From positions 1 to 37,868 of the forward strand of contig WOUW01000020.1 in the NCBI GenBank assembly GCA_009773055.1: a DNA stretch of 37,868 bases, written 5' to 3'. Position numbers and translations under genes: made by a program. Of the stretch, positions 3,684 through 20,449 are shown one piece after another. A model generated the notes under the pieces. The model saw only the letters and a list, made by a program, of their open reading frames with translations. It did not search any database and had not been told where the DNA came from. How positions within the stretch are numbered: position 1 is the first letter of the stretch; each line of letters begins with the position of its first letter. This DNA comes from Paracoccaceae bacterium. GTDB taxonomy: Bacteria; Pseudomonadota; Alphaproteobacteria; Rhodobacterales; Rhodobacteraceae.

Positions 3684-3995
3684 TCATCCCTTCCGCAAAC
3701 TGTCCGGCCCAAGCCGGTTTTCTTCCCGCGCGATGGACCAGTCGATCAGCCGCCGCCACAACTTCTCCACCAGTTCAGGCGGCAACCCGTAGGTTTCGGC
3801 ATGGCGGCGGACATTGCTGACCACCTCTTCCACCCGGCTCCCGATCCGCGCAGGCAAATCGACCTCGGCCTTGATCTCGGCTGCGCGGTCGATGTAACCC
3901 GCCCGCTCGGCGAACAACCGGACCAAATCTTCGTCCAGCCGGTCTATTTCGGCGCGGATCTGGGCCATGGACGTGCAATCGACAGGCTTCGGCAT
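3684..3995 (-). CDS. Chorismate mutase, AroQ class (type II fold)
   Basis: Small all-helical enzyme predicted to convert chorismate to prephenate on the route to phenylalanine and tyrosine. In 103 residues it has the AroQ N-terminal helix pattern [21 protein letters not shown], with Arg14, Arg31 and Lys42 at the spacing expected for the active-site basic residues, and a helical C-terminus. AAGGAG lies about 8 nt before the ATG. The gene lies between fhs and folD, and its stop overlaps the upstream candidate start of folD, so the three are probably translated from one message although the pathways differ. The related PchB-type isochorismate pyruvate lyases have the same fold and cannot be excluded by reading alone, but no salicylate genes are nearby. 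Confidence 0.85.
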
Positions 3996-18260: not shown

Positions 18261-19272
18261 TTACTTCCCGCCGAACAGGTCCGCCTGACCCAGTTTCGTG
18301 GATTCGGGCACCTTGGGTGCTTCCAGCCCCAGATGCCGCCAGGCCTTCGCCCCCAGCATCCGGCCCCGCGGGGTACGCAGGATCAGGCCCTGCTGCAGAA
18401 GATAGGGCTCGATCACCTCCTCGATCGCATCCCTCGGCTCGGACAACGCCGCCGCGATCGTCTCCACCCCGACCGGCCCGCCGCCGTAGTTCTCGGCCAG
18501 CAGGATCAGATACCGCCGGTCCGCGCCATCCAGCCCCAGATGGTCCACCCCCAGCCGCGTCAGCGCCCGGTCGGCCAGCGCGCGGCTGATCCGCCCGCCC
18601 TCCTCGACAAGTGCAAAGTCTAGTCCCTCGCGCCCGCCGCGCGATCTCGCGGCAGCCCTCCGGTTCCGCCTGAACCCCCATCAGCCGCGCCCCGCGCGTC
18701 ACGATCTCGAACAACTCCGCCTCGGAATAGAACTCCAGCCGGGTCGGAATCCCGAACCGGTCGCGCAGCGGTGTCGTCAAAAGCCCCAGCCGCGTCGTCG
18801 CCCCGACCAGCGTGAATGGCTGCAGGTCGATCCGCACCGTCCGCGCCGCCGGCCCCTCGCCGATCACCAGATCCAGCGCGAAATCCTCCAACGCGGGATA
18901 CAGCACCTCCTCGACCACCGGGCTGAGGCGGTGAATCTCGTCGATGAACAGCACATCCCGCGGCTCAAGGTTGGTCAGGATCGCCGCCAGATCGCCCGGC
19001 TTGGCCAGCACGGGACCCGAGGTCATCCGGAACCCCACCCCCAGCTCTCGCGCCATGATCTGCGCCAGCGTGGTCTTGCCCAGCCCCGGAGGCCCGTGGA
19101 ACAGCGTATGATCCATCGCCTCGCCCCGCATCCGGGCGGACTCAATGAACACCGCCAGATTGGCCCGCGCCTCGGCCTGACCGATGAACTCGGCCAGCAT
19201 CTGCGGGCGCAGCGCCTTGTCGGTGTCCTCGGGCAGGCGCTCGGGCCGCAAGTCGGGGTTGGGATCGCTCAT
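18261..19272 (-). pseudogene. ruvB: Holliday junction helicase RuvB, disrupted by an internal deletion
   Basis: RuvB is the AAA+ ring motor that drives RuvA-bound Holliday junction branch migration. Codons 1-217 are normal: Walker A GPPGLGKT (60-67), Walker B VLFIDEIH (107-114), then [10 protein letters not shown]. Family proteins continue with PRIAxRLLRRVR and then DFA. Here GGGACT is followed by A and then GACTTTGCA (junction 18621-18622), so those 12 residues, part of sensor 2 with its catalytic Arg, are gone and the frame shifts. The proper C-terminus (DFALVEEGG through [20 protein letters not shown] to GQADLFGGK) resumes from 18620 in another frame and stops at 18261. Unshifted reading continues to a stop at 18202. 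Restoring 35 nt would give about 348 residues, near the family length. The ATG overlaps the ruvA stop. A strain deletion or an assembly error are both possible. Confidence 0.88.
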
Positions 19273-19943
19273 TTCGGTGCCAGCAGCTTCAGCGCCGCCC
19301 GGATCACCACCGCCGTTTCAGCCTCGGGCGCATCGCCCATCACCGTCGCCACCGCCTGCGCCGCATCGCCCTGACCATACCCAAGGTTCACCAGCGCCGA
19401 CAGCGCATCGGCCGAGGCGGAAGCCCGCCGCGCAGCACCTTCGTCACCCTTCGCCGCCTTGCGCGGAGCGGGAGCGGCCTCCTCAATCACCACATCCTCC
19501 GCCGCTGCTTTTGCCGACAGCCCGACGCCCGCAGCCATAACCCCCGGCGCTTTCGCCTTCAGCTCCAGGATCACCCGCTGGGCAAGTTTCGGACCGACCC
19601 CCGGCGCCGCCTGCACTGCCCGGGCATCACCCAGCGTGATCGCCCGGCCCACGCCTTCCGCGCCCAAAGTCCCCAGAATCGCCATCGAGGCCTTGGCCCC
19701 AACGCCCTGAACGGTCATCAGAAGCTTGTGCCACTCCTTCTCCAGCATGGTCGGAAAGCCGAAGAGCTGCAGCAGATCCTCGCGCACAAGAAGGTCGGTA
19801 TACAAGCTGACCGCCTCGCCGACCCCCGGCATTCCGGCCAGCGTCCGGTCGCTGACGTAGACGATGTAGCCCACCCCGCGAACGTCGATCAGCACATGGT
19901 CCGGCCCGCGCCAATCCAGCCGCCCCGAAATCCTGCCGATCAT
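19269..19943 (-). CDS. ruvA: Holliday junction branch migration protein RuvA
   Basis: Tetrameric protein that binds Holliday junctions and loads RuvB. The 224 residues show the N-terminal OB fold ([26 protein letters not shown]), two helix-hairpin-helix motifs ([17 protein letters not shown] and [17 protein letters not shown]), an Ala-rich linker, and the C-terminal RuvB-contacting domain ([20 protein letters not shown]). The linker is a little longer than in E. coli. Both ends overlap neighbours in ATGA fashion: its ATG with the ruvC stop and its stop with the ruvB start. RuvA itself looks intact even though ruvB is disrupted. Confidence 0.96.
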
Positions 19944-20449
19944 TCCGCCGCCCTCAACGCCGCCGCAAGTCGGCCCGCAGATTGCACATGGTGCGCATGG
20001 CAGATCGCCACCGCCAGCGCGTCCGCCGCATCGGCCCCCGCGATCTTCACCCCCGGAAACTGCAGCTTGACCATGTGGTCGACCTGCACCTTCGCCGCGT
20101 GCCCCACGCCCACCACCGTCTTTTTGACTGCGTTCGGCGCATATTCCCCCACGGCCAGCCCGAACTGCGCCGGCACCAGTAGTGCTATCCCCCGGGCCTG
20201 GCCCAGCTTCAGCGTCGCCACGGCGTCCTTGTTGACGAAAGTATGCTCGACCGCCGCCGCTTCGGGCAGCCAAAGCTTCAGCACTTCGGTCAGCTGCGCA
20301 TGCAGCGACAAAAGCCGCACGGCCAGGTCACCGTCGGCACCGTCGGAATGGCAGATGCCGTTCGCCACATGGGAAAGGCGCGAGCCCGCCACGTCGATCA
20401 CGCCCCAGCCCAGGTTTCTAAGCCCCGGATCGATGCCAATGACCCGCAT
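19940..20449 (-). CDS. ruvC: Crossover junction endodeoxyribonuclease RuvC
   Basis: Resolves Holliday junctions by paired nicks. The 169 residues carry the RNase H-like opening [18 protein letters not shown] with the first catalytic Asp, an internal [21 protein letters not shown] block with a catalytic Glu, and the C-terminal [15 protein letters not shown] with the last catalytic Asp pair. The ATG at 20449 has a GGGGG run just upstream; an in-frame start at 20500 would add residues not found in the family. First gene of ruvCAB here, overlapping ruvA. Confidence 0.96.

Follow-up and report, generated by a model that had tools for sequence, protein, structure and literature searches.

RuvB is the helicase of Holliday junction branch migration and is described by the protein families TIGR00635 and NF000868. 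A cryo-EM study of RuvAB identifies Arg218, which lies in the small ATPase domain, as the sensor 2 arginine of RuvB (PMC9477746). A different kind of described case also bears on the locus presented here. According to a review, local assembly errors in metagenome-derived genomes are recognised by a want of read support and, when left uncorrected, spread incorrect protein-coding gene sequences in public genomes (PMC7111523).

We analysed a stretch of 37,868 nt (hereafter the window), that is, bases 1-37868 of contig C65 (70,448 nt), from an assembly whose 87 contigs total 2,261,068 bases, with a completeness of 59.14 and a contamination of 0.3. This is a draft genome and, judging from its fragmentation and completeness, probably one assembled from a metagenome. 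The window contains a ruvB gene in two pieces that, like known RuvB helicases, are colinear with the profiles of both families and come after ruvC and ruvA. Unlike them, the gene as assembled lacks the sensor-2 segment and has a broken frame. The locus resembles the local assembly errors of metagenome genomes in that its gaps are clean and short, conserved genes are broken and one assembly only is concerned; like cases also occur in other fragmented assemblies of the genus. Such errors are marked by absent read support (PMC7111523), and the ruvB case is judged from sequence comparison.

Organization of the ruvC-ruvA-ruvB cluster

The three genes lie on the minus strand in the order ruvC, ruvA, ruvB, with the following features:

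18261..18622, minus strand: 3' part of ruvB in another frame, 119 residues and a stop codon
18622..18623, minus strand: junction at which 35 nt with the sensor-2 segment are missing, placed by alignment with 25 relatives
18623..19272, minus strand: 5' part of ruvB, 216 codons plus 2 bases, to ARRARG(T), about 217 residues
19269..19943, minus strand: ruvA, intact (TIGR00084, 169.2 bits, cut-off 85, profile positions 1-202 of 202)
19940..20449, minus strand: ruvC, intact (TIGR00228, 132.3 bits, cut-off 100.65, profile positions 1-153 of 156)

The N-terminal part of ruvB matches NF000868 with 332.7 bits (cut-off 282) over profile positions 13-215, with the Walker A and B half present, and TIGR00635 with 288.9 bits over positions 2-194 of 305. 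It shares 92-98% amino-acid identity with the main ruvB copies of 22 genomes of the same genus. The 3' part matches the same two profiles further on, NF000868 with 120.2 bits (positions 228-328 of 330) and TIGR00635 with 104.7 bits (positions 207-304). The frame shifts at the gap, so that the C-terminal 119 residues, which are there and are conserved, are read in a different frame. An earlier reading of the same DNA (the original prediction) had described the Walker half of ruvB, ruvA and ruvC as intact and the last 119 residues as continuing out of frame. Our results agree with it on every one of these points, through the NF000868 match for the first, near-full profile matches for ruvA and ruvC, and the second TIGR00635 match for the C-terminal residues.

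Alignment of ruvB with its relatives

The window gene was aligned with 25 relatives, 22 of the same genus and 3 of the same class. Loci L001, L002, L007 (this gene itself), L031 and L034 were excluded, as were L035 and L036, which gave no BLASTN match. This multi-relative alignment shows that exactly 35 nt are absent from the minus-strand gene, between plus-strand bases 18622 and 18623. The lesion of about 35 nt that had been proposed at 18600-18650 is hence confirmed and given its precise length and place. The original prediction had also suggested comparing the gene with ruvB of relatives: the gap is found in none of the 22 alignable genes of the same genus and in none of the 3 of the same class. 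The remaining gaps in the window gene measure 1-3 nt close to its start, and several more lie around its 3' end. On either side of the 35-nt gap, identity to G015, a genome of the same genus, is 36/40 and 35/40, which shows that the gap is no accident of the alignment.

The lost segment reads PRIAGRLLRRV in 20 of the 22 rows of the same genus and PRVAGRLLRRV in the other 2, and the residue that follows is A or V. The loss of PRIAxRLLRRVR had been predicted from the window; the segment is indeed absent, but the arginine expected at its end is not what relatives carry there. The missing stretch belongs to the part common to solved RuvB chains. With the help of an alignment between the RuvB of G014 and PDB 9dx3, we place Arg218 within the missing PRIAGRLLRR. 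The 35 nt gone from the assembled ruvB comprise the sensor-2 segment, probably with its arginine.

A gap as exact and clean as this one might be a very recent real deletion of 35 nt, in this strain or in a dominant strain. RuvB would then be non-functional for want of its sensor-2 arginine, and branch migration would rest on RecG or another helicase. We regard this explanation as improbable. Part of what speaks for it is found around the junction itself, where there are five candidate pairs of inverted repeats, three of which flank the junction (18554-18690). One of the flanking pairs is perfect (11 nt, 18580-18590 and 18680-18690, 89 nt apart), and such repeats could also favour a real deletion. 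The one direct repeat near the gap, a 12-nt pair (83%), lies away from the junction.

Distribution of the gap in related genomes

The junction, allowing up to 3 mismatches, is present in 1 of 394 genomes of the family, and that one is this assembly. This weighs against a recent deletion, though the sample comprises about one genome per genus and includes a single other member of this genus (2 of 394 in all). Within the genus, ruvB scores above the family cut-off in 27 of 32 genomes, which likewise argues against a deletion; the five exceptions include this assembly, itself counted among the 32. Here the gene is in two frames, in G044 a contig end truncates it, and in G016, G017 and G042 ruvB was not found in this comparison of 32 genomes. 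In a same-genus comparison of 24 genomes, too, G016 and G017 showed at most a weak match to ruvB. That a Rhodobacteraceae lineage has truly given up the sensor-2 function of RuvB, while keeping ruvA and ruvC and using another route of branch migration, is very unlikely.

The deletion might also exist in some cells of the population only, the assembler having retained the shorter path. Drafts from communities are generally known to mix strains, and a shorter path can be kept, but the short allele is absent from all other genomes examined, and the same explanation would have to apply twice to the essential gene ileS (see below). Such a mixture is therefore extremely improbable.

In G016 (completeness 100, 820 contigs), where ruvB was not found, ileS is split across two contigs, and the missing ruvB is probably due to assembly gaps. 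The best match to a named genome, among the best 80 of 593 confirmed stretches and in a scan that may omit records of the window's own genome, has 88% amino-acid identity and belongs to a MAG of Pseudorhodobacter sp. The family is most likely Rhodobacteraceae.

Backup genes in the bin

A search of the whole genome for a second ruvB had been advised by the original prediction. In the 2.26 Mb of the bin, only about 59% of the genome, our profile search found none; the best match other than the two pieces of this gene, of 52.4 bits, presumably represents RarA. Nor was recG found in the bin, where the best match scores 35.1 bits and the cut-off is 659.4, and at a completeness of 59% its absence is most likely due to the missing part of the genome. 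This result speaks against a recent deletion that leaves branch migration to RecG, yet, with the bin 59% complete, the lack of a second ruvB or of recG says little. With no more than about 59% of the genome covered by the search for a second ruvB, the sensitivity to UV and mitomycin that had been deduced from the lesion has no firm basis.

Selection on the two ruvB halves

Both halves of the gene were compared with five ruvB genes of the same genus. Uncorrected pN/pS values before the gap were 0.064, 0.040, 0.049, 0.083 and 0.071, and those after the gap, in the same five comparisons, were 0.034, 0.087, 0.030, 0.110 and 0.117. The second value is somewhat larger than the first in three of these comparisons, a point against an assembly error. 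No stop codons were seen in the halves in these comparisons, and with pN/pS of 0.03-0.12 against five relatives neither half shows clear relaxed selection or a further lesion. The strong constraint after the gap fits an intact gene, or else a lesion too young to leave a mark. To this extent a recent deletion is compatible with the data, since a young enough lesion leaves no trace of relaxed selection.

The same values bear on genome decay, for example in a host-bound lineage accumulating small deletions in which translation or repair is somehow compensated. Decay would be in keeping with the several small gaps, described below, that break the frame of conserved genes. Yet pN/pS is low in both halves of ruvB, GC in 1-kb steps along the contig is 0.52-0.72, small frame-breaking indels relative to G015 are not in excess, and a loss of ileS is impossible, so that we find this explanation close to inconceivable.

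Other gaps in the same assembly

Past the window, at C65:38300-41260, the same contig carries ileS, and the frame of this gene is broken twice, by the loss of 29 nt at C65:40167 and of 25 nt at C65:38700; both gaps are bordered by high identity to G015. We aligned 29 rows of the same genus from 30 loci (L166 was excluded): the 29-nt gap is absent from all 28 rows that cover its site and the 25-nt gap from 27 of 27. When the bin was searched with the ileS profile, the pieces on C65 scored 472.3 and 291.8 bits. Next came, with 209.6 bits, a frame of 1058 aa on C52 that we take to be valS, and two weak matches. The C65 pieces are the only good isoleucyl-tRNA synthetase match in the bin. Isoleucyl-tRNA synthetase is essential, so a cell with ileS as assembled would not be viable unless a second gene lies in the missing part of the genome.

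Because like gaps break an essential gene on the same contig, we consider it very likely, from these comparisons, that ruvB owes its 35-nt gap to a local error in the assembly of this fragmented draft. The contig would have been closed over a short piece of ruvB, which was lost from the consensus; candidate causes are a bridge made where coverage was low or strains differed, and the wrong joining of contigs. The error would thus have arisen in assembly, and in the organism itself ruvC, ruvA and ruvB most likely form an ordinary cluster of intact genes.

E. coli can live without ruvB, so a true lesion in ruvB alone would be viable. This dispensability, should it hold here, speaks for a recent deletion, but such a deletion must coincide with gaps of similar size on the same contig, of which the two in ileS can hardly be real. 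We therefore do not regard the gap as a true feature of the organism, with near certainty, and if it is an assembly error it is biologically unimportant. The inactivation of a core recombination motor, as originally proposed, is thus unsupported: there is no clear relaxed selection, and ileS is broken twice on the same contig. The evidence favours instead the assembly artefact that the original prediction had named last.

Further gaps were seen in the same assembly. At C65:42418, 31 nt are missing from a regulator-like gene; its counterpart in G015 matches the LIC13292 transcriptional regulator family best among NCBIfam families, with a score under the cut-off. At C30:6200 a 40-nt gap shifts the frame of a gene that is presumably M20-peptidase-like. 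Other clean gaps measure 24 nt (C46), 18 nt (C30) and 11 nt (window position 3684, apparently intergenic). Within ileS, the stretch before the 29-nt gap (C65:40170-40570) has extra bases, and its first part shows 76% amino-acid identity to G015 as against 89% elsewhere; this divergence reflects either natural variation or a chimeric piece.

Comparison with other draft assemblies

Gaps were compared over stretches of three contigs, using G015 (same genus, completeness 99) as reference. Under a strict filter (at least 32 matches out of 45 on each side, and flanks otherwise free of gaps), the 98,315 bases aligned yielded six stretches missing here (on C65 35, 25 and 11 nt, on C46 24 nt, on C30 40 and 18 nt) and two extra stretches, of 17 and 9 nt, on C46. 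Considering gaps of at least 20 nt, four stretches (35, 25, 24 and 40 nt) are absent here versus none absent from G015. The 29-nt and 31-nt gaps described above failed this filter, as did a 92-nt gap in G014. Two other fragmented assemblies served as controls: in G018, over 23,040 nt, the filter gave three gaps (90, 68 and 9 nt) and no extra stretches, and in G014, over 15,081 nt, it gave neither.

Cruder measures were less useful. By tblastn against G015, genes in more than one frame numbered 6 of 83 here, 6 of 24 in G018 and 4 of 15 in G014, but this count is too noisy, since it picks up antisense frames and start extensions; as the controls were equally high, DNA alignments were used in its place. 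Raw indels of at least 10 nt (52 in 70,477 nt here versus 11 in 14,502 nt of G014) are uninformative because most fall in poorly conserved stretches. Small frame-breaking indels relative to G015 amounted to 131 in 70,477 nt here and 32 in 23,019 nt of G018, while G014 and G015 compared both ways gave 36 in 15,061 nt and 37 in 14,502 nt; these indel figures leave out the genes of G018 and G014 against this assembly and part of the G015 genes against G018. Such indels are therefore not in excess, as they would be with error-prone long reads, and in this respect the assembly does not resemble a raw long-read consensus. The overall gap rate does not separate this assembly from other fragmented ones. 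With controls equally high, our argument rests on the genes affected and on alignments with many relatives, and not on the rate.

The controls contain comparable gaps. In G018 (about 170 contigs), 90 nt, or 30 residues, are absent just before the Walker A motif of a gene that we take to be ftsH (L132, G018:C4, around 9948). FtsH would hardly work without the segment preceding Walker A, and this gap too is probably an assembly error. In G014 (about 180 contigs), a 92-nt gap destroys the frame of a gene that is presumably tolB (L134, G014:C81, around 7439). In each case the missing stretch is present in all three other assemblies examined. In draft genomes of this kind, conserved genes such as ruvB, ileS, ftsH and tolB can thus seem to have lost their function through clean gaps that measure 25-92 nt, which calls for caution; checking other core genes on the same contig exposes such false losses.

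Finally, a short contig of G011 (G011:C34; L189, 1-8735) carries a second ruvB together with neighbouring genes. Its product has 99% amino-acid identity to that of the window gene over residues 69-217, and the gene is free of the gap. At the DNA level the two genes share no more than about 82% identity, which rules out a near-identical intact copy and indicates an origin in another species; its identity to the main ruvB of G011 is also about 82%. The short contig is probably contamination from another species of the genus.
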